From a virus, in the IMG/VR virus record IMGVR_UViG_3300032050_001021, positions 1-20,439 of that record: a stretch of 20,439 bases of DNA. One strand, 5' to 3'. The position numbers and the translations under genes were made by a program. Under the pieces are notes generated by a model that did not search any database, was not told where the DNA came from, and worked only from the letters and a program-made list of their open reading frames with translations. Positions 4,610 to 13,583 of this stretch are shown here, piece by piece. The stretch's first letter is position 1; the number at the start of each line of letters is the position of its first letter.

Positions 4610-5046
4610 CCTATCAATTTGCCCGTATCAATCTAGCAAAAACCAATTATCAAGCATCAGCCCAGTGGGGATATCTCATACCTACCGAACAGCAAATGGT
4701 GGAACTTGACAATATCTATAGAACTTACTGTATCTATAAGCATTTCAGTAGTGTGATACCCATGTTTCGAAGCCGATATACCGATCCAATGACTGACGTC
4801 ATTGGATATTTTGATCAAGAACGCATGGTAGCATTCAGTCTCATACGAAGGTATGACGACAAAAATGCTCTCTGTGATCAATTTGCATGGACATATCATG
4901 ATCCGCAATCAAGATTGGGCATTGAAACCATGAAAACAGAATGTGCCATATACAAAGCAAGGGGCTTTGATTATCTCTATCTCGAGCAGGCACATCTTTA
5001 CAAAAAAGAGATAGAAGGATTTGAAATACTAGGACCAATGACATGA
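4606..5046 (+). CDS. GNAT-like acyltransferase domain protein
   Basis: A 146-residue protein. The central and C-terminal parts, with DVIGYFDQERMVAFSLIRRY, then QFAWTYHDPQSRLGIETMK and a last block with YKARGFDYLYLEQAHLYKKE, follow the strand-helix order of the GNAT fold: a strand with AFSL, a helix with LGIETMKTECAIYKARGF, then a strand DYLYLE. The nearest likeness is to the acyltransferase-like half of arginyl-tRNA-protein-transferase-type GNATs. A clear acetyl-CoA loop (R/QxxGxG/A) is not seen, so it may bind a different donor or be non-catalytic. It is coupled to both neighbours by 4-base ATGA overlaps. Substrate unknown. Confidence 0.6.
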   Translation: MTYQFARINLAKTNYQASAQWGYLIPTEQQMVELDNIYRTYCIYKHFSSVIPMFRSRYTDPMTDVIGYFDQERMVAFSLIRRYDDKNALCDQFAWTYHDPQSRLGIETMKTECAIYKARGFDYLYLEQAHLYKKEIEGFEILGPMT

Positions 5047-5378
5047 GCGACTTATACACGATATGGGCAGACAAAGAAGGTGATATCTCAGACCTTGATT
5101 GGGTCACAGGAATGCGAAGTTTTTTTGAGCACCTGATGTCTGAGGGCAAGATGATGAGTTATAGGATAACCCGTTGCAAGATGGGATTCCGTTCAATCGC
5201 AGACATGCCCGAATGGATGATCATCATGGAGTTTAAAGACATGGCACAGATGGACTCAGCATTTCGTCGTGTGGCGCCATTGGAAGGCGAACTCGAAGAA
5301 AAACACAAAAGTTTCAATCAGTTTGTTTCGGGCAACATCCAGCACGCACTGTTCCGTGATTGGCCTGATCAGTTCTAA
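5043..5378 (+). CDS. Small conserved phage protein, possibly ferredoxin-like dimer fold
   Basis: A 111-residue protein beginning MSDLYTIWADKEGDISDLDW, with a middle segment RITRCKMGFRSIADMPEWMI and then IMEFKDMAQMDSAF. The pattern of strand, helix, strand, strand (EWMIIMEF), helix is compatible with a dimeric alpha/beta-barrel (ferredoxin-like) fold. It resembles a domain of unknown function found in bacteria and marine phages; I cannot name it with certainty. It begins within the stop of the GNAT-like gene (ATGA) and is the last gene of the rightward operon; the terminator at 5636-5664 follows after a long untranslated stretch. Function unknown. Confidence 0.7.
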   Translation: MSDLYTIWADKEGDISDLDWVTGMRSFFEHLMSEGKMMSYRITRCKMGFRSIADMPEWMIIMEFKDMAQMDSAFRRVAPLEGELEEKHKSFNQFVSGNIQHALFRDWPDQF

Positions 5379-5811: not shown

Positions 5812-6252
5812 CTAGCCTTGACTGCTTAGTTTGCCTTTGATGTGACTGCCATGCACACGGACCTGTATGTGTCCGTTGTAATAGTCATCACTTTCTAATA
5901 CACGTCGGGAGAATTGTTCGCGAGCCTCTATGTAACTGCATTCCGATTTGGATTGGCAGTAATACAGTATTTCACGTGAGAAGTTTTCGGTGCCTAGCAG
6001 TTCAACATCTCGAGATAACTCCGGAGAACTGCCATAATATGTCTGCCAATCTGAATCTATCGCGCCTCTGATTTTTTTGCGTTTCTTTTTGCCATTTTTG
6101 AGTTTGACTACTCGATATGTTGTTTTCTTGAACTTTGCTAATTTTTTGCCAATATACTGCCGGCCGGTAAGTTTATTGGTGATCAAATAAACAAACCCGA
6201 CACACGTTTCGGGTAACTCTGTGATTTCTCGGGATTCGAAAAGCCATGACAT
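5812..6252 (-). CDS. GIY-YIG family nuclease-like protein
   Basis: A 146-residue protein from the ATG at 6252 (a GTG at 6258 in the same frame would add two residues). It carries GFVYLITN at 19-26 and RQYIGKK at 31-37, the GFVY and QYIG pair of the GIY-YIG core, then a Lys-rich strip (KLKNGKKKRKKIRG), then SDWQTYYGSSPELSRDV and NFSREILYYC, and a Cys/Glu segment CSYIEAREQF that may hold the metal-binding Glu. Similar stand-alone proteins are common in T4-like marine phages and are usually annotated as putative endonucleases. It is not an obvious match to T4 DenA. It is the last gene of the leftward operon, starting 17 bases after the split radical SAM gene, without a clear ribosome site. A homing or DNA-degrading role is inference. 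Confidence 0.68.
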   Translation of the reverse strand: MSWLFESREITELPETCVGFVYLITNKLTGRQYIGKKLAKFKKTTYRVVKLKNGKKKRKKIRGAIDSDWQTYYGSSPELSRDVELLGTENFSREILYYCQSKSECSYIEAREQFSRRVLESDDYYNGHIQVRVHGSHIKGKLSSQG

Positions 6253-6269
6253 GAGCACATAATTATCAA

Positions 6270-6590
6270 TTATTTCTCAGATATAGAAATATCACGTTTT
6301 CCAATCAAAAGATCGTCGGTACAACCTGTGCATCGATTCCGTCGACAGATTCCGGGAGCATCAAACGGGCTCCATTCTTTGAAAAGATTGCCCAAGCGAT
6401 CGTTTTGACAAACTGCGCTGTAGACGTTGAAATCCTTGTCTATATCCAATCGACGATAACCTGCATCGCAACTCCATCCTGACCAATGATCTAAATCGTT
6501 ATTGTGCATCCAGTTGGCACTGACCTTGAACGATCTCCCATCTGACAGTTCTATTTCACAGTTATAGTATTGATGATTTTCAAATTCCAA
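6270..6590 (-). CDS. SPASM-like C-terminal part of a frameshifted radical SAM protein
   Basis: The frame codes 106 residues and opens at a TTG with no ribosome site. It contains SGWSCDAGYRRLDIDKDFNV with Cys41, then Cys61 in SAVCQNDRLGNLF, and Cys82, Cys87 and Cys90 in ICRRNRCTGC. This cysteine layout, with the G-R/L-ID-D-G-V-Y style strand and LGNLF, is that of a SPASM/twitch auxiliary iron-sulfur domain found at the C-terminus of radical SAM enzymes. It overlaps the upstream radical SAM core frame by 11 bases. Removing one G of the GG at 6587-6588 would join the two into one enzyme of about 312 residues. So this is most likely the second half of one gene, by mutation, read error or, less likely, +1 frameshifting. 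Confidence 0.65.
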   Translation of the reverse strand: MEFENHQYYNCEIELSDGRSFKVSANWMHNNDLDHWSGWSCDAGYRRLDIDKDFNVYSAVCQNDRLGNLFKEWSPFDAPGICRRNRCTGCTDDLLIGKRDISISEK

Positions 6591-7203
6591 GATTCAATTT
6601 TCCTTTGAATATGGGCACGGTGCGAGTCTGATAGGAATAATCTATCTTGTTCACAGTGTAGCTGATGTCGTGATGTTCTAGCAGATTGATATACAACGGA
6701 ATACGATCTTGATTCCAGTATTCATCCATGATAGCGACCTGCAAGAATTTATCAGGTGAGATACTTTTCTTAAGTTGTATGATCATGTCAAAAAATTTCT
6801 CTTCATTGATGTGTTCCGAATGCACACTGAATGCGATGTTGTCTAACGCTTGGAACATTTTCTGATAATACTTGAGATTGGCGCTGCCATTGGTGGTAGC
6901 CAGCAATTTGAATATGTGCTGATCATATTCCTTCCGCAACCAAGTGACAAACGGTAGAAAGTGTTTGTTTGAAGTGAGTTCTCCACCGGTAAATGCGATC
7001 TTATAGGGTAGATTTTGTTTGCTGGTCTTTTCAAATATGTTTAACCAAGCCTGTTTCATAGTGTCAAGATCATGATGCTGGCTATGATCATCATGCCACA
7101 TGGGAGAACAATACATGCAATCATAGTTGCAACGCACAGCCAATTGCCAATTGATGCTGAAGTATTGTTCGGTAGGTGTGACTCGTATGATCCGGGATGT
7201 CAT
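6580..7203 (-). CDS. Radical SAM protein, core domain (N-terminal part of split gene)
   Basis: This 207-residue frame has the radical SAM cluster motif CNYDCMYC (Cys25, Cys29, Cys32, CxxxCxxC) and FTGGEL at 71-76 in the position of the SAM-binding GGE motif. Later strands include FKLLATTNGS and IAFSVHSEH, as expected for the partial TIM barrel. Such enzymes cleave S-adenosylmethionine to a 5'-deoxyadenosyl radical. The start overlaps the gp46 stop (ATGA), so the two are co-translated. The stop at 6580-6582 cuts the protein before its SPASM-like domain, which continues in the +1 frame. Unlike the other two radical SAM proteins of this operon it has no N-terminal twitch segment. Substrate unknown. 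Confidence 0.8.
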   Translation of the reverse strand: MTSRIIRVTPTEQYFSINWQLAVRCNYDCMYCSPMWHDDHSQHHDLDTMKQAWLNIFEKTSKQNLPYKIAFTGGELTSNKHFLPFVTWLRKEYDQHIFKLLATTNGSANLKYYQKMFQALDNIAFSVHSEHINEEKFFDMIIQLKKSISPDKFLQVAIMDEYWNQDRIPLYINLLEHHDISYTVNKIDYSYQTRTVPIFKGKLNLGI

Positions 7204-8963
7204 GCTATGTCAATGTCGGTGTTGTATGACGTAAAGCCGTTTTCTTTGACCACACGCAGGATGTTTTCAACACGTCCAGCCAGTTCGTCTCTGTGCGATA
7301 CTAACCATATTGACTTGTGCCGTTCACGACTCATCTTCTTCAGCAAGGCCAACGAATTTTCCACACCCTGTGTGTCCATGCCTGAATCTACCAGTTCGTC
7401 GATGAACAGCACGTTGATGGGATGATACAATGATTCCCATACATCACGGAAGGCCCATGACATTGACAAGATCAGTCTATTGCGCTCTCCGCGACTTAAA
7501 TTGTCAAAGTCTAGATCTCGTCCCAATTCTTGTATTTCCACAGTGAGATCGTTTTGGAATATTACCGAATGTGGCAAGCCGATGCGATCAAGATAGTATG
7601 TCAACCGAGCATTCAAATAACTCAAATTCTGCTCAATAATCTTTTTGCGGATGAATGAGTCTTTGTTGGTCAAGAGTTTTAACAGGAAGTCTTGATGCTC
7701 TTGCAAGCGGGTGAGTTCGTTGAGAGTGTCATAGGTCACTGTTTGCAGGGCCTGTCCTGTCATCTCTTCGATCTGTTCACCGTAGGGATCTGTTTCTTGT
7801 GCCTTGATGTCCAGTTGTTGTTGTAGGTTGTCTACGTTGGCACGATGTTGTATGGCATCTTCTTCCGCATCATAGAACATCTTGGGAGGTTTTCCTAACT
7901 GGCCCAAGGAGGTGTGGGCAGCCTCCATTTCTGATAGCGTTTGTGTATGCTCCTGGCAAGACGTTCTTGCTGTTGCCAAATCCTCCTGCTTGCTTGCCAG
8001 TACCTGTTGGTGCTTTGAGTCGTGGAAGGCTTGACCGCATGTATGACAGGTATGCTGTTCAAGAGTCGCAATCTCTTTGCTAAGTTTGCCAATGTTTTTC
8101 GTCTCGCGATCAACATCAAGTTTCGTGCGGGATATTTGTCCAGCAAGATCGTTGATGTCTTTGCGCTTCTGATCCCAAATTTTGTAGTCCTTGTGCGCTT
8201 GGATCTCTGCGTCAATGTCGATCTTTCGCAGTTCTTCCAAGGCCTTTTGGATTTTATCTGTCTCTTCCTCATGTTTGGTCTTCCACATTGTTTGCCTACG
8301 CCGCAGATTTTCGATCTGTTCTTCTATACGCTTGTTGGCTTCTTGCACAGCTCGGATACGCATTTCTTCCTGAGCAATGGCATCTTTGGTTTCTCTATTG
8401 AGTTCTTTGATGCGCTCAGCACGCTCACTCAAAAGGGTGATACCCAACAGTTGTTCTATGATCACACGTTGATCATTGGCCTTCAAGCTCAAAAACGGTT
8501 CTGTGTATGTGTTCAGCGCCAGCACATGTCGGAACATGTCGTGAGTCATGCCCAGGGCAGACTCTATGGCATCTTGTGTTTCTCGACTGTCGCCTTGCGA
8601 GTTGTCATCTGCTGCCTGTTCTTCGTTGTTGACGTAGAATTTCAGTATGTTGGGTTTGCGACCACGCTCGATGCGGTAGTCGCGGCCATTGATGTTGAAA
8701 TCTAAACTGACCAACATGTTCTTGCTGTTGGCTTTGTTGATGAGATTGTCGCGTCGGATATTGGTGAGAGCTTGACCATACAGCGCATAACTCAGTGCAT
8801 TGATTATAGTGGTCTTACCTGTGCCGTTACGGCTGCCATCGCCGCCTAAATCTAAGTTTTCACCTAGAACTAATGTAAGGTCTTGACGATCAAAGTTGAT
8901 GGCTTGTGTGGCATTGCCCACACTCATAAAGTTTTTAACGGTTAGGTCTTTGATTTGTATCAT
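7200..8963 (-). CDS. gp46: Recombination nuclease ATPase subunit, gp46 / SbcC / Rad50-like
   Basis: A 587-residue SMC-type ATPase, close to the length of T4 gp46. Walker A is GSRNGTGKTT (43-52). A long coiled coil spans about 175-450 and is broken by a zinc hook CHTCGQ (Cys306, Cys309), as in Rad50. The ABC signature is LSRGERNRLI (489-498), Walker B is NVLFIDEL (517-524) and the switch His is in LVSHRDEL (554-561). With gp47 it forms the nuclease that resects DNA ends for recombination-dependent replication and helps host DNA breakdown. In many T4-like phages genes 47 and 46 are neighbours; here a radical SAM gene sits between them. The next gene overlaps by ATGA. No strong ribosome site; the upstream stop is 9 bases away. 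Confidence 0.95.
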   Translation of the reverse strand: MIQIKDLTVKNFMSVGNATQAINFDRQDLTLVLGENLDLGGDGSRNGTGKTTIINALSYALYGQALTNIRRDNLINKANSKNMLVSLDFNINGRDYRIERGRKPNILKFYVNNEEQAADDNSQGDSRETQDAIESALGMTHDMFRHVLALNTYTEPFLSLKANDQRVIIEQLLGITLLSERAERIKELNRETKDAIAQEEMRIRAVQEANKRIEEQIENLRRRQTMWKTKHEEETDKIQKALEELRKIDIDAEIQAHKDYKIWDQKRKDINDLAGQISRTKLDVDRETKNIGKLSKEIATLEQHTCHTCGQAFHDSKHQQVLASKQEDLATARTSCQEHTQTLSEMEAAHTSLGQLGKPPKMFYDAEEDAIQHRANVDNLQQQLDIKAQETDPYGEQIEEMTGQALQTVTYDTLNELTRLQEHQDFLLKLLTNKDSFIRKKIIEQNLSYLNARLTYYLDRIGLPHSVIFQNDLTVEIQELGRDLDFDNLSRGERNRLILSMSWAFRDVWESLYHPINVLFIDELVDSGMDTQGVENSLALLKKMSRERHKSIWLVSHRDELAGRVENILRVVKENGFTSYNTDIDIA

Positions 8964-8972
8964 TTTTATATT

Positions 8973-10463
8973 TTACATATATCTCATGGCTTTTGCAATC
9001 TCAGAGTGACTTGCTGAAAAACTTTCACTTCGAACCTGATCAAAATATTGCATTTTAGATTGAAACTTCTTGCCATCACTGTCAGGCAAATTTTGTATTA
9101 TCTTAATAACATTTTGGATTTCATTCCAGGGGTGATCTTGAAACTTGTCAATAATAATTTTTTTGGCTTCTTTTGTAAGATCCTGTAGCTCCATTCCTTC
9201 ACCTTGCACATGGTTAACAAATATAGGAAAACCATGTTTGCAAGCCCAGTCGTAGACTTGGTCTATGTAGTAAACGCTCATGACACTGATAGTGGGCATG
9301 ATACTAATAGACAGGTTGGGTAACTGTAAATCTTTGAGCCTTAGTATGTTGTCCTCAACTTCAGACCACTGACCGCCTCTTTGTAGTTCAAAATGTGAAC
9401 CAACAGCATCAATACTAAAATGTATGTCTACCAGTTTAAAACTAGGCCAAACAGGTAGCAAATGATTGGGCCAAATGGATCCGTTGCTGTTGTAGTGTAA
9501 TCTAATGTCCTTGGCGTAGTCTTTTTCAACTGCCATCTCCAACACCGATTTAAAACGTTTAATCAAAAACGGCTCGCCGCCAAACATGTCAATATTTTTT
9601 ATGTCAGGCAAGTACGTTAGAACTTGATCAATAAAATCTTGACTCTCCCCCCAAGCATCTTGTACAACTAACTTAGATCCGCGGAACTTTTGATCTTCAA
9701 GGGCAAACAACGAGCTGTTTCCACCGTTACATATCCTGCATTTGAAATTACAGGTGTTATTAAACTTCAAATCTAATGTAGCTACTCTTGGTTGATCAAG
9801 ATATTTGGTTAAAAATTCTCTCTTTAAATGCTTGACATTGTGCAGTCTAATAGAAGTTAGATTTTTTTCTTCCACTTTCCAGCAGTTGTCGCACTCTTTT
9901 GGTTTTTCTCCAGCCAATAAACTAGCCCTTAACTTTTGTAGTTTTTCGTCATGGAACGCTTGATCTAGTTTGATACGGTTGACGTTACCAAGATCAAGAT
10001 TGTTCATGCAACAAGGAGTAATAGTTCCGTTTTGTGTTATCTGTAAGTTGTGCCAGGGTATAGAACAAATAGTATCGGGTAAATTAAAGTTGTTTTCAAT
10101 CTTGTGTGTTTGTTTGTCTAACTCAACTGGGTGGAACCAAATTGGAACAGAGTCAAGTGAAAACTTTTTACAACACGACAACACGTCGTGCTCAATTTCT
10201 TTTGGCCCACATATCATTATGAACCAGTTGCTGATATCTATAAAATTGATAGTTTCGTAAAAGAACTGTAGAAAACTCTCAGGAATAAAATGTGAAGTGT
10301 AAAAAACCAACCGATCGTTTGTCTCGTAACTAGTTTGGTAAACACTGTCTAGTAGCTTAAACAACTCCGTGGGGCCGGTTGACAGCTTGCCAAGATCGTG
10401 AATTACTTTGACGTTGTGGGTTGACTTTAGTTGGTGTTCTAACTCTAGGGTGGAAATAATCAT
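8973..10463 (-). CDS. Twitch-domain radical SAM protein, AT-rich, with unique N-terminal domain
   Basis: A 496-residue protein. Residues 1-128 form an unrecognised domain (LVFYTSHFIPESFLQFFYET, INFIDISNWFIMIC). Residues 131-200 have the N-terminal twitch layout: Cys133 in CSIPWHNLQI, CC at 151-152 followed by LGN, then CDNCW at 191-195. The radical SAM core follows with LDLKFNNTCNFKCRIC (Cys238, Cys242, Cys245) and MFGGEPF at 293-299, and DIHFSIDAVG further on. Twitch-type clusters usually bind an auxiliary 4Fe-4S centre; such proteins are often tied to modification of peptides, sugars or nucleotides. It starts in the gp47 stop (ATGA). Four sampled 60-base lines give 82 G/C in 240 (34%), against 90 in 180 (50%) in neighbouring gp46 and gp47, a sign of separate origin. 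Confidence 0.85.
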   Translation of the reverse strand: MIISTLELEHQLKSTHNVKVIHDLGKLSTGPTELFKLLDSVYQTSYETNDRLVFYTSHFIPESFLQFFYETINFIDISNWFIMICGPKEIEHDVLSCCKKFSLDSVPIWFHPVELDKQTHKIENNFNLPDTICSIPWHNLQITQNGTITPCCMNNLDLGNVNRIKLDQAFHDEKLQKLRASLLAGEKPKECDNCWKVEEKNLTSIRLHNVKHLKREFLTKYLDQPRVATLDLKFNNTCNFKCRICNGGNSSLFALEDQKFRGSKLVVQDAWGESQDFIDQVLTYLPDIKNIDMFGGEPFLIKRFKSVLEMAVEKDYAKDIRLHYNSNGSIWPNHLLPVWPSFKLVDIHFSIDAVGSHFELQRGGQWSEVEDNILRLKDLQLPNLSISIMPTISVMSVYYIDQVYDWACKHGFPIFVNHVQGEGMELQDLTKEAKKIIIDKFQDHPWNEIQNVIKIIQNLPDSDGKKFQSKMQYFDQVRSESFSASHSEIAKAMRYM

Positions 10464-11476
10464 AGCGCCTGATATATTTGGAGTAATAGTTTAGGATCGT
10501 AGAACTCTGATTCTATCTTGGTGATCTGATCTGTGACGATCTGATCCACTGATTCAAATTTCACATCTCCGGGAGCCATGTCTTCTTCCAAGGCAGATCG
10601 CTTGTTGGGTATCAGGGCCATTTCTCGCAGGCCATGCTTGACGATAAATGTGTCTTTGATGAAAGTGGCTTCTTCATAGGATATTTCGATGTCTAGTTGC
10701 ACACGCACATGCATGTTGGGCTTCAAGATTTGTTCAGCGTTGTCAATGACATGGCTGAGATCCCAGACATTGTATAAGGGCTGTTCGGGCCATGCATGAT
10801 ATTCGGGTTGCTTGCCCCACTCCAATATCATGCAGCCACGATTGGCATCACCAGCATCGGCAAAGTTGTGCGGAAACGCATTGCCAATGTAGTTGATGTT
10901 GTTTTTGTGTTGTCGAAGATGAAAGTGACCAGAAAACACTTGATCGATATGTCCAAAATGATCTACCTGTATGGTTCCATGATCGGGCATTTCTACCATG
11001 GCATTCATTTTGAAGTGTGGCAGTTCAAAATGACCAAACATGTATTTGGCATTCAATTTTTCGATGCGTCGGTGTTCGTCTCCGACCAACCAAGGAGCAA
11101 TGACAACATCACCTTCTTGGAACCAATCGTTGCAGATATGTATGTTGGGCAAGTGCCGGGCCCAGGCCGCACCGTGGATATCCCGTTTGTCGCGATAATA
11201 CAGATCGTGATTGCCCGGAATAAAAAAGAACTGAGAGAATGCTTTGCTTAGTTTTTCCAATGCTTGTAGACTGAAGTTCAGTGTTTGTAAGTTGATAGCC
11301 GCACGATGGTGATGCCAGTCACCCAAGAACATGCCGGTTTCGCAACCGTGTTCCTTGCCCTGGGCGATGATCCAATCTACAAACTGCTCGCAATCTTGAT
11401 TGTGCAACAGGCTATTCGATTTCAGTCCAAAATGGATGTCAGTGAAGACTATGGCTTTTTTAAATAGATTGGTCAT
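10460..11476 (-). CDS. gp47: Recombination nuclease subunit, gp47 / SbcD / Mre11-like
   Basis: A 338-residue metallophosphoesterase, the same size as T4 gp47. Motifs in order are FTDIHFGL (Asp13, His15), LGDWHHHR (Asp53, His55), PGNHD (Asn89, His90, Asp91), MFGHFELP (His149) and FSGHFHLRQ (His184, His186), which supply the two-metal site. It works with gp46 as the Mre11-Rad50-type complex that processes DNA ends in phage replication and recombination. The gene begins 1 base after the stop of the upstream radical SAM gene and ends in an ATGA overlap with the next radical SAM gene, so its translation is tied to both. Confidence 0.95.
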   Translation of the reverse strand: MTNLFKKAIVFTDIHFGLKSNSLLHNQDCEQFVDWIIAQGKEHGCETGMFLGDWHHHRAAINLQTLNFSLQALEKLSKAFSQFFFIPGNHDLYYRDKRDIHGAAWARHLPNIHICNDWFQEGDVVIAPWLVGDEHRRIEKLNAKYMFGHFELPHFKMNAMVEMPDHGTIQVDHFGHIDQVFSGHFHLRQHKNNINYIGNAFPHNFADAGDANRGCMILEWGKQPEYHAWPEQPLYNVWDLSHVIDNAEQILKPNMHVRVQLDIEISYEEATFIKDTFIVKHGLREMALIPNKRSALEEDMAPGDVKFESVDQIVTDQITKIESEFYDPKLLLQIYQAL

Positions 11477-11477
11477 G

Positions 11478-12626
11478 TTATTGTAGATATCTTTCGATCA
11501 TATCAATGGTATCCGGCCATAAAACGTTGAACTTTAGATCTGACCAGGAGTCATACCACTGAACTTTTTCATAGAAATTCTTTTTGTTGACAGTGTTTTT
11601 GCTGTGAGATTCGATCAGCCCTTGGCGAATCGACTGTAACCCAGAGATAGGATATAGATCAGCATCTATGCCATGGGTCTGTGCGTGCCAGGTTGATATG
11701 CGATCCAGGACGTTCACCAGTTGTTGTTTGATAGGAGTTGGCATGTTGAACGCACTGATTTCAGGATGTCCGGCGATCGGCATCAACGTTATTTTTTTCA
11801 CACCGTGTTCATGATAGTATCGCACGATATCGTAAAGATCCAACGCATTGAACATGCTGTAAACCATGTTGAAACTCACGCTGTCGGGCCAATACTGTAA
11901 CACCAACTTTAAGTTGGCAAGAAATCTATCCCATTGTATGCCGTTGCGCACATACTCCAATTGCTGTCCAATATTCTCGATGCTGATGTTCCATATGACA
12001 TTGTTTCGAGGTCGCCGTAGCAGATCTTCAAAACATGGCAGCGTGGCTAGGTCGTAGGCAAAATTGGTTATGATGCTGATCCTACAATCTTGTGGTAATT
12101 GTTTTAGCAACTCATAATTTTGTTTCATCAACATGGGCTCACCGCCCACTAACATTAATTCCTTGAGTTCGTGTGATTTTTCAAGCACCCATTGTAACAA
12201 ATCATCCTGATAGCTTTTACGAGGAGAGGTTGTGGATACTCCCATTCGATCTTCCCAAACACTGCTGAATGTAGGCGAACAATACTGACACGCAAGGTTA
12301 CATTTGTTGTTCCATCTCACATCAACGAATCTCAGTTTGTGGGTAAAATCATCCAACGGATAGTGAGTTTGGTAATGCTGTCGCAATGAAGCCGTGTTGT
12401 GTTGTTTGTCGTGCATGATGCATTCGGCACAGTTGCTATGCTCACGACCGTCCAACAGATAGGATTTTATTTCTTCCAAAGCGTCAGAGTGGTGCAATAT
12501 CTCTCTAATAGATTTGGAATTGAGATTGCCCAGAGATGTTTTGCCTGAACAACAGGTTTTGACGTCTCCATTTTCTCTCACGGTCACTCCTCTCCAGGGA
12601 GCCGAACAATAAATTCCACTATCCAT
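11478..12626 (-). CDS. Twitch-domain radical SAM protein
   Basis: A 382-residue protein. The N-terminus is the twitch segment: CSAPWRGVTVRENGDVKTCC (Cys7, Cys25, Cys26), LGNLNSKSIREIL, then CAEC with Cys66 and Cys69. The radical SAM core begins with FVDVRWNNKCNLACQYC (Cys109, Cys113, Cys116), followed by LVGGEPML at 159-166. This is the same order as in the 496-residue protein, without its extra N-terminal domain. It is 14 bases downstream of the gp55 gene and 1 base upstream of gp47. The two homologous copies in one operon suggest duplication or repeated capture, but they are distant in sequence. Enzyme activity is expected from intact motifs; the substrate is unknown. Confidence 0.87.
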   Translation of the reverse strand: MDSGIYCSAPWRGVTVRENGDVKTCCSGKTSLGNLNSKSIREILHHSDALEEIKSYLLDGREHSNCAECIMHDKQHNTASLRQHYQTHYPLDDFTHKLRFVDVRWNNKCNLACQYCSPTFSSVWEDRMGVSTTSPRKSYQDDLLQWVLEKSHELKELMLVGGEPMLMKQNYELLKQLPQDCRISIITNFAYDLATLPCFEDLLRRPRNNVIWNISIENIGQQLEYVRNGIQWDRFLANLKLVLQYWPDSVSFNMVYSMFNALDLYDIVRYYHEHGVKKITLMPIAGHPEISAFNMPTPIKQQLVNVLDRISTWHAQTHGIDADLYPISGLQSIRQGLIESHSKNTVNKKNFYEKVQWYDSWSDLKFNVLWPDTIDMIERYLQ

Positions 12627-12640
12627 AGAGTAGCAGTATA

Positions 12641-13528
12641 CTATTCTTCTGAAGGAGATGCGACCGCTTCGGCTGCTTTGTTATGGCTTTCCGAATACTG
12701 TCTAGTCCACGAAGGATTGAGTCCGTTCATTTCCAAGATATCATCGCGTATGTTCTGCATCTTCTTTTCTATGTTCAACACACGAGTGAAGCTATTAGTG
12801 ATAGCGGCAGTATAATACGCAAAAGGGTTCTGCGATTTTGATTCATCGAACTGCAATCCGATCTGGCTGAGCTGTAGCAGGGCCTGACCCCGCATTTCTT
12901 CGTTGTAGGTGTATCCACGCCAATTGCTCCTTGTAGCGTATCTTTCGCACAGTTTGATAAACATGTGCGCCAATTTTGGGGTCATTTTGCCATGTTCCCT
13001 GCAGAACTCGCCCCCGTCTAGACTACCCCGCCAGTGTGATTTACCCACCACAAACGGCTGTTTTTCTTCGTCCAAACGATAGTGCCAAAACGGCGGAAAA
13101 TTCAATCTGACATGTGCAGTATCCAGCACAGGCACATCTACGATGTCCTCGAGCCCGTCGCTTTCCTGGGTGTCATCCAGTTCCAGCAGTTCCTCCATCT
13201 TGGCTTTTTTGGCCTGGGCTTTGGTTTGCTTTTTGGGTGCCATGGGTATGTGTTCCCAGGTAGTGATACGGAACACAAGATCGGTGTGCGGAATCTTCTT
13301 TTCGTTGACTGCTTCGCCGGTTTCTTTTTTGATCCTATCAGCCCTGTTGCGCCGGGCTTCGGCTATGGTTCGCTGATTGATCTTGGACAGCGAAGGCAAG
13401 ATGATGTCATACTGATGATCCATTTGTGGGTTCACATAGGTGCAGTATGAATTCTTGCTGTGGTGTATTTCTTTCAATATATCTTTGTTGTTGAGATAAT
13501 TGGTCTTGGCTGGAGTCTTGATAGACAT
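12641..13528 (-). CDS. gp55: Late-transcription sigma factor, gp55-like, with long N-terminal extension
   Basis: A 295-residue protein from the ATG at 13528, chosen because AGGAGA at 13544-13539 lies 10 bases before it; an in-frame ATG at 13567 would start above the promoter -10 box and is ignored. The C-terminal part, with LAHMFIKLCERYATRSNWRG, MRGQALLQLSQIG, NPFAYYTAAITNSFTRVLN and MNGLNPSWTRQ, is the gp55-type sigma region 2, which binds RNA polymerase core and the TATAAATA box. T4 gp55 is about 185 residues; this protein has an extra N-terminal part (NYLNNKDILKEIHHSKNSYC and on) and a charged linker (KKQTKAQAKKAKMEELLELD) at about 90-115. It is first in the leftward operon under a sigma70 promoter, so it is made early and then switches on structural genes. 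Confidence 0.88.
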   Translation of the reverse strand: MSIKTPAKTNYLNNKDILKEIHHSKNSYCTYVNPQMDHQYDIILPSLSKINQRTIAEARRNRADRIKKETGEAVNEKKIPHTDLVFRITTWEHIPMAPKKQTKAQAKKAKMEELLELDDTQESDGLEDIVDVPVLDTAHVRLNFPPFWHYRLDEEKQPFVVGKSHWRGSLDGGEFCREHGKMTPKLAHMFIKLCERYATRSNWRGYTYNEEMRGQALLQLSQIGLQFDESKSQNPFAYYTAAITNSFTRVLNIEKKMQNIRDDILEMNGLNPSWTRQYSESHNKAAEAVASPSEE

Positions 13529-13555: not shown

Positions 13556-13583
13556 ATTATACAACATTTGGCATCTTTGTCAA
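13556..13583 (-). promoter_or_regulatory. Strong sigma70-type promoter of the gp55/recombination operon
   Basis: On the minus strand TTGACA (13583-13578) and TATAAT (13561-13556) are both perfect consensus, with a 16-base spacer. Start is expected near 13549, giving a leader of about 20 bases that carries AGGAGA before the gp55 ATG. Host polymerase should therefore transcribe the operon from the beginning of infection. Confidence 0.85.

Follow-up and report, generated by a model that had tools for sequence, protein, structure and literature searches.

Radical SAM genes in a phage gp55-gp47-gp46 operon, and a conserved array of such genes in the same phage

The window analysed here is the whole IMG/VR virus record IMGVR_UViG_3300032050_001021 (20,439 bases), in which three genes for radical S-adenosylmethionine (SAM) enzymes, rSAM1, rSAM2 and rSAM3, lie among the genes of a late sigma factor (gp55) and of the two subunits of a resection nuclease (gp47 and gp46). 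This raises the question of what such enzymes do in the gaps of a core recombination module. The initial annotation of the locus described the arrangement and read it as a functional unit, possibly an early modification system expressed with the nuclease. The observation was confirmed and extended, and the interpretation is partly supported: the module is a hotspot for cargo, and its rSAM genes look like inherited residents that are often lost, because rSAM genes are enriched in it and most rSAMs of the N-twitch type group by gap. Further rSAM genes of the same phage stand in a conserved array.

Cargo in the gaps of the gp55-gp47-gp46-GIY module

The genes form one tight operon on the minus strand in the order gp55, rSAM1, gp47, rSAM2, gp46, rSAM3, ORF7 and a SegE-type GIY-YIG gene, with recomputed junctions of 14, 1, -4 (ATGA), 9, -4 (ATGA), -11 and 11 nucleotides (nt). 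The initial annotation had reported the same order and the junctions 14, 1, ATGA, 9 and ATGA, and its coordinates and families agreed with Pfam, NCBIfam and PHROGs, except that it counted seven genes and overlooked the eighth, ORF7 (6270-6590). The features are as follows.

13556..13583, minus strand: TTGACA-N16-TATAAT, a 12/12 match to the sigma-70 consensus upstream of gp55 and the operon; a promoter predicted from the consensus match alone
12641..13528, minus strand: gp55-type late sigma factor, core gene (phrog_12791, 264 bits, E 3e-78)
11478..12626, minus strand: rSAM1, N-twitch radical SAM enzyme, 382 aa (NF033640 212.5 bits; PF04055 41.4 bits; SPASM PF13186)
10460..11476, minus strand: gp47, SbcD/Mre11-type nuclease subunit, core gene (phrog_100, 187 bits, E 1e-54)
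8973..10463, minus strand: rSAM2, N-twitch radical SAM enzyme, 496 aa (NF033640 276.4 bits; PF04055 39.1 bits; SPASM)
7200..8963, minus strand: gp46, SbcC/Rad50-type subunit, core gene (phrog_77, 329 bits, E 2e-97)
6580..7203, minus strand: rSAM3, predicted radical SAM core half of a split enzyme, 207 aa (phrog_13987, E 9e-14; relatives of the same length)
6270..6590, minus strand: ORF7, 106 aa, predicted auxiliary Fe-S (twitch-like) half with a UUG start (follows short rSAM3 in relatives)
5812..6258, minus strand: SegE-type GIY-YIG nuclease, last gene of the module (PF19835, 113.3 bits against a cut-off of 25)

The gp55 gene starts at 13528 with AGGAG upstream of the start, and early expression of the operon, as assumed in the initial annotation, is plausible because of the 12/12 sigma-70-type match (13583-13556) upstream of it.

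Relatives keep the core order gp55-gp47-gp46-GIY, with the SegE-type gene at the same place in most of them, but the contents of the gaps vary. Gap counts were taken from 68 distinct loci for which gp46 was the only query, 46 of which have all three gaps. The gap between gp55 and gp47 (48 loci) held an rSAM in 3, other cargo alone in 10 and nothing in 35; the corresponding numbers were 16, 25 and 21 for gp47-gp46 (62 loci) and 45, 10 and 11 for gp46-GIY (66 loci). At least one rSAM was present in 34 of the 46 complete loci and none in 12, and no complete locus had an rSAM in all three gaps. When loci fetched by rSAM were added, all three gaps were filled in 2 of 59, one of them being the window's own species, and 13 of 59 had no rSAM. 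The occupancies of the gaps were not significantly associated with one another (P 0.70, 1.0 and 0.075).

In Pseudomonas phage Cassandra, one of the cultured phages with the closest gp46 (50.8% identical), late sigma factor, gp47 and gp46 are contiguous, which supports the view of the initial annotation that a core module has been invaded by enzyme genes at its gaps. The tight spacing and the overlapping codons within one operon would suit rSAM products with a direct helping or protective role in the reaction of the resection nuclease, but the sigma-gp47-gp46 set of Cassandra works without rSAMs and the same rSAM families are also found far from gp46. Since none of the complete loci fetched by gp46 has the arrangement with three rSAMs, the functional unit fails the comparison with relatives by which the initial annotation had proposed to judge it, and we consider it very improbable.

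Chance insertion, the alternative offered there, does not account for the whole pattern either. In 17 records, 174 places with a PF04055 match were found, 85 in the array described below (its borders were set by hand), 30 in the module from gp55 to GIY and 59 elsewhere, whereas 8.3 would be expected in the module by length; the binomial P of 1e-9 treats related genes as independent. The records are chosen long contigs, 15 fetched by gp46 and two (G001 and G020) by rSAM, and leaving out the latter two the module still holds 24 of 146 places. These counts are lower bounds that miss some rSAMs, such as a 437-aa relative in the module of record G011. A tree of 125 rSAMs placed most sequences from the module in clades pure for one gap (8 of 10 for the first gap, support 0.99; 8 and 6 of 17 for the second; 4 of 4 for the third); the tree excludes the commonest third-gap type (cl0), and a few gap sequences lie outside gap-pure clades. 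Furthermore, of 11 loci from other species than the window's that have an rSAM1 orthologue (not dereplicated), 10 have it between gp55 and gp47; the eleventh, L100, is a stretch without either core gene.

The contents of the gaps change much even between close gp46 relatives (L004-L007), and other cargo is no rarer than rSAM in two of the three gaps. Such turnover would be expected of neutral passengers that recombination in the conserved flanks brings in and removes again without a selected benefit at the site. We regard this as improbable in view of the enrichment at the module, of catalytic and auxiliary cysteines that are invariant across the relatives of rSAM2 and of array rSAMs that are 68-88% identical between phages. 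A mobile GIY-YIG element as the source of the cargo was also considered and rejected, as the gene belongs to the fixed part of the module in most loci.

Cargo other than rSAM in the second and third gaps (gp47-gp46 and gp46-GIY) of relatives, for example at L065:6471-7940, L070:6815-7969 and L025:7258-8004, includes an AMP-binding enzyme (39.9 bits) and a DUF6071 protein; proteins resembling amidinotransferases and short-chain dehydrogenases, as judged from sequence likeness alone, are further examples. A TctC match (115 bits) lies within the gp47-gp46 gap of L065.

N-twitch enzymes and the split rSAM3-ORF7 pair

All three enzymes contain the CxxxCxxC and GGE motifs noticed in the initial annotation (CNLACQYC/VGGEP in rSAM1, CNFKCRIC/FGGEP in rSAM2, CNYDCMYC/TGGEL in rSAM3). 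Together with their PF04055 domains, this places all three in the radical SAM superfamily; in rSAM3, PF04055 scored 28.3 bits, slightly below the curated 29.5, but phrog_13987 matched it with E 9e-14. The subfamily search proposed there gave a clear result for two of the three: by sequence, rSAM1 and rSAM2 belong to NF033640 (N_Twi_rSAM, twitch domain-containing radical SAM proteins; model length 398), whose curated cut-off of 170 bits they exceed over model positions 4-394 and 2-396, respectively. Two array rSAMs of G001 were scanned as well and likewise score above it across almost the full model, whereas rSAM3 (29.4 bits) is far below. NF033640 is a family without assigned function, from which rSAM2 differs by an extra N-terminal domain of ~125 residues. 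Twitch- or SPASM-like cysteines had been ascribed to all three proteins; they are present N-terminal to the core in rSAM1 and rSAM2 (SPASM PF13186 at residues 7-69 and 133-195), but those that would belong to rSAM3 sit on ORF7. The viperin family NF038283 (cut-off 180 bits) scored 39.3 bits with rSAM1, 25.6 with rSAM2 and 56.7 with rSAM3, and a role of rSAM3 as a viperin-like synthase of 3'-deoxy-3',4'-didehydronucleoside triphosphate (ddhNTP) was rejected on this score.

Stand-alone relatives of the N-terminal domain of rSAM2 were found in L009, L079 and L070, weaker ones in L030 and L074. Five long array rSAMs match its profile as well, partly since the profile extends into the beginning of the twitch region. 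The AlphaFold2 model of rSAM2 has a mean predicted local distance difference test score (pLDDT) of 90. A fold search, spanning residues 145-458 and so essentially not the N-terminal domain, matched the radical SAM core with BlsE, anSME, viperin, MoaA and SkfB, and because these five are tied at Z 11-12 the search does not fix a substrate.

The short rSAM3 is followed by ORF7, which overlaps it by 11 nt and ends 11 nt ahead of the GIY-YIG gene. The same pair, with ORF7 starting inside the end of rSAM3, was found in 57 distinct junctions of relatives, and the sole short rSAM3 without ORF7 (L118) stops at a contig end; a sequencing error that splits one gene was rejected because the split recurs so often. 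ORF7 is conserved and cysteine-rich, and weakly matches the C-terminal part of an STM4011-type rSAM in NCBIfam (E 0.002). In L047 and L050, both halves are fused in one protein of ~330 aa. The structure prediction suggested in the initial annotation was done for rSAM2 and for the fused protein of L050. The L050 model (mean pLDDT 80, linker 219-260 not confident) matched BlsE best, with Z 16.3 over 247 residues within residues 11-328, spanning both halves, followed by MoaA (Z 14.0), BtrN (13.0) and SpeY (10.2). Core and C-terminal part of these twitch enzymes align with the fused model, but identity to the four is 15-21%, and here the enzyme is encoded by two genes with a UUG-initiated second half. 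From these sequences and models we infer that rSAM3 and ORF7 are a two-subunit twitch-type enzyme.

The start codon of ORF7 is UUG in 46 junctions, AUG in 10 and unassigned in one (the first pair of L127, with neither start by the rule used). Since ORF7 is in the +1 frame relative to rSAM3 in 56 of the 57, a programmed +1 frameshift was considered; it is unlikely because AUG replaces UUG in 10 of 57, L119 has its UUG in the other frame and L139 has a stop right before the AUG. ORF7 is probably made by coupled re-initiation. L117, L132 and L146 likewise carry rSAM3-ORF7 pairs and further rSAMs within a second core region, where they separate genes that by eye look gp32-type and UvsX-type.

A conserved rSAM array in the same phage

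The three module rSAMs are identical to those of record G001 (315,778 bp), which is the same phage. G001 contains 14 rSAM genes, a count to be taken as at least fourteen; across the 27 records examined, the number ranged from 2 to 19. Four rSAM genes of G001 are consecutive beside a carbamoyltransferase gene, a fifth follows ~5 kb further, and the island around this array encodes GDP_Man_Dehyd, Epimerase and Cupin domains and, by reading of the sequence, a sugar-kinase-like protein. With the rSAM r2 as marker, at least 583 loci were confirmed, the best 80 of which were analysed; they were not dereplicated and include near-identical ones. All 80 contain r2 and f5, 78 each an r0-type and an r1-type rSAM, 75 the carbamoyltransferase, 64 f6, 39 an SGNH-like protein and 34 an amidinotransferase. 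The five loci without the carbamoyltransferase end within 2.4 kb of r2. Four to eight rSAMs were present in 77 of the 80, and r2 is 68-88% identical between phages. The genes are tightly packed, with 85 of 105 same-strand junctions overlapping or at most 10 nt long, and 19 exceeding 60 nt.

In 50,697 phage records, f5 had no match, and it found nothing in Pfam, NCBIfam and PHROGs; r2 matched only the cultured Vibrio phages K566 and K567, at 22% identity, and r0 these two and Marine virus AG-345-D19. A bacterial origin of the array was considered; among 84,980 species genomes it was seen at 7 loci, all in records of metagenome-assembled genomes.

Phages rich in rSAM genes are already in print. 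The T4-like marine phage TARA_ERS488813_N000010 has 12 rSAM genes and a gene for an A-type Fe-S carrier (PMC5332604) and thereby resembles the large phage described here, but its account, in the text available, describes no array, carbamoyltransferase, gp46/47 hotspot or split enzyme. A-type carriers are encoded in 5 of 19 records, namely all five above 230 kb, and such a supply in large records fits active enzymes. Pelagimyophages carry rSAM cassettes and lipopolysaccharide (LPS) genes in a host recognition cluster (PMC7029224); variable rSAM cassettes in phages that also bear LPS-type genes are a common feature, but theirs are placed, according to the available text, between VrlC and gp14 and not in gp55-gp47-gp46. 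Full-text literature searches, covering sources other than subscription journals and outside preprints, turned up neither the array nor the hotspot at gp55-gp46 nor the split enzyme, and none of the three is described in the accessible parts of PMC12619734 and PMC9723584. The conserved array behind this rSAM-rich phage is thus undescribed in the literature searched.

What the enzymes may modify

Partners of the array suggest a role in glycan tailoring. The carbamoyltransferase, present in 16 of 19 records, has novobiocin-type enzymes, GdmN and TobZ as closest solved relatives; that of G001 matches PF02543 and PF16861 over cut-off and scores 138.8 bits with the NodU equivalog NF041651, below its cut-off of 1000. 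The amidinotransferase is related to AGAT and inosamine-phosphate amidinotransferase, and epimerases are encoded in 13 of 19 records, with seven in G001. In Vibrio phage K566, four rSAMs scoring with the rSAM1 and rSAM2 profiles lie among two genes of glycosyltransferase family 8 (GT8), followed by PagP (by annotation) and LpxC. Because of these sugar-type partners, the K566 neighbourhood and the LPS genes of pelagimyophages, we favour a surface-glycan tailoring set with the array as conserved centre and the window rSAMs as dispensable members, a reading to which we give just short of an even chance. A narrower proposal is more tentative and decidedly possible rather than probable, namely that in a widespread group of such phages the cluster, usually five or six N-twitch rSAMs with f5 and the O-carbamoyltransferase, produces a novel glycan or small molecule during infection that is carbamoylated and in many cases also amidinated, with the rSAMs of gp55-gp47-gp46, the split twitch enzyme included, as exchangeable accessory tailoring enzymes.

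The window rSAMs are cargo at a hotspot in a group of large uncultivated myovirus-like phages unusually rich in radical SAM genes, and in such a system they would be expressed from a predicted early promoter together with the recombination genes. The centre would be formed by the N-twitch rSAMs of the array, f4, f5 and the NodU/TobZ-type O-carbamoyltransferase, with the amidinotransferase and nucleotide-sugar enzymes nearby. SAM would be cleaved reductively at the [4Fe-4S] cluster of the CxxxCxxC motif, giving a 5'-deoxyadenosyl radical that could abstract hydrogen from a sugar-type substrate held near the twitch Fe-S cluster and thereby cause oxidation, epimerisation or rearrangement; rSAM3 and ORF7 would do so as a two-subunit enzyme. 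The array partners would add carbamoyl and amidino groups, and the product may decorate glycans at a surface, with host lipopolysaccharide as the most likely target, thereby blocking competing phages, and the virion as the other.

Several observations weigh against glycan tailoring. GT8 genes are sparse (5 of 19 records, none in G001), GT2 genes were found in 4 of 19 and over cut-off in 2, and none of the array partners turned up in the window record. The PF00534 gene annotated beside an rSAM in KVP40 was not confirmed by the Pfam scan. Among the partners, f4, f5, f6, f10, f14 and further ones have no Pfam match (f4 and f5 of G001 likewise), and a PDB search with a profile of f4/f9/f10/f12/f14 gave no solved structure. 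The label glycosyltransferase-like for some of these proteins comes from a motif that is reminiscent of fucosyltransferase-type sequences, and the structural matches at similar Z include the peptide maturases SkfB, SuiB and anSME as well as viperin. The motif itself, an invariant TEK...I with HPF..G..LR..GFKTF, is shared by f4, f9, f10, f12, f14 and L009:7424-8005 (alignment A3).

Many characterised SPASM/twitch enzymes act on peptides, and maturation of a ribosomal peptide by N-twitch rSAMs, or modification of a protein of the virion or the host, would agree with the matches SkfB, SuiB, EpeE and anSME; f5, the invariable partner without known family, could then be the substrate. The tight junctions of the array leave little space for a precursor gene, the 19 longer ones aside, and no precursor or leader-binding domain was identified, although no dedicated search was made. 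We consider modification of a peptide or protein unlikely.

Hypermodification of DNA or nucleotides, in which rSAMs and carbamoyltransferase would build a modified base that protects the phage DNA and would be expressed with the recombination genes, draws on the position of the rSAMs in an early replication/recombination operon and on folds of the viperin type, which bind nucleoside triphosphates, among the structural matches. Moreover, a phage NodU-type carbamoyltransferase of the same Pfam families (PF02543/PF16861) works on 5-hydroxymethylcytosine (PMC8670742). As far as the available text of that source goes, however, the DNA-active enzymes co-occur with thymidylate-synthase homologues, whereas the array enzyme stands beside rSAMs and 17 of 19 records, some of them fragments, have no homologue of thymidylate synthase or deoxycytidylate (dCMP) hydroxymethylase; the two that do are not G001. 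The partners in the island are of sugar type, too. No Tet_JBP match was found in the 19 records, which shows little since the control matched no genome either. The DNA-precursor modification of the initial annotation is weakened by these findings and appears rather unlikely; together they suggest that a modified surface sugar is more likely than a change to the phage's own DNA.

Further genes were noticed in the course of the analysis. G001 encodes a Gram-negative porin at 231344-232483 (L200:11344-12483; PF13609, 133 bits), which could alter receptor display, adjoined by a TctC-like binding protein (L200:12504-13442; 23.8 bits, under the cut-off of 27); the two may hint at a Gram-negative host, perhaps a betaproteobacterium. 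In the window, a small plus-strand gene at 5043-5378, one of four overlapping small genes before the end of the operon, matches DUF6614 with 77 bits. The best PHROG match of the GIY-YIG gene (5812-6258) is PHROG 447, labelled NAD synthetase, a label that looks wrong beside the Pfam match SegE_GIY-YIG.

In sum, a recombination operon can dock unrelated metabolic cargo, which calls for caution when function is read from operon neighbours. The predicted twitch radical SAM enzyme encoded by two genes has halves that can be expressed apart, which lets the role of the auxiliary cluster be tested. The marker rSAM is encoded by at least 583 viral loci, so that aquatic and other viromes commonly contain the enzyme set. 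To our knowledge, few biosynthetic pathways of such length have been described in phages, and the conserved cluster makes testable what a phage gains from five or more radical enzymes per infection.

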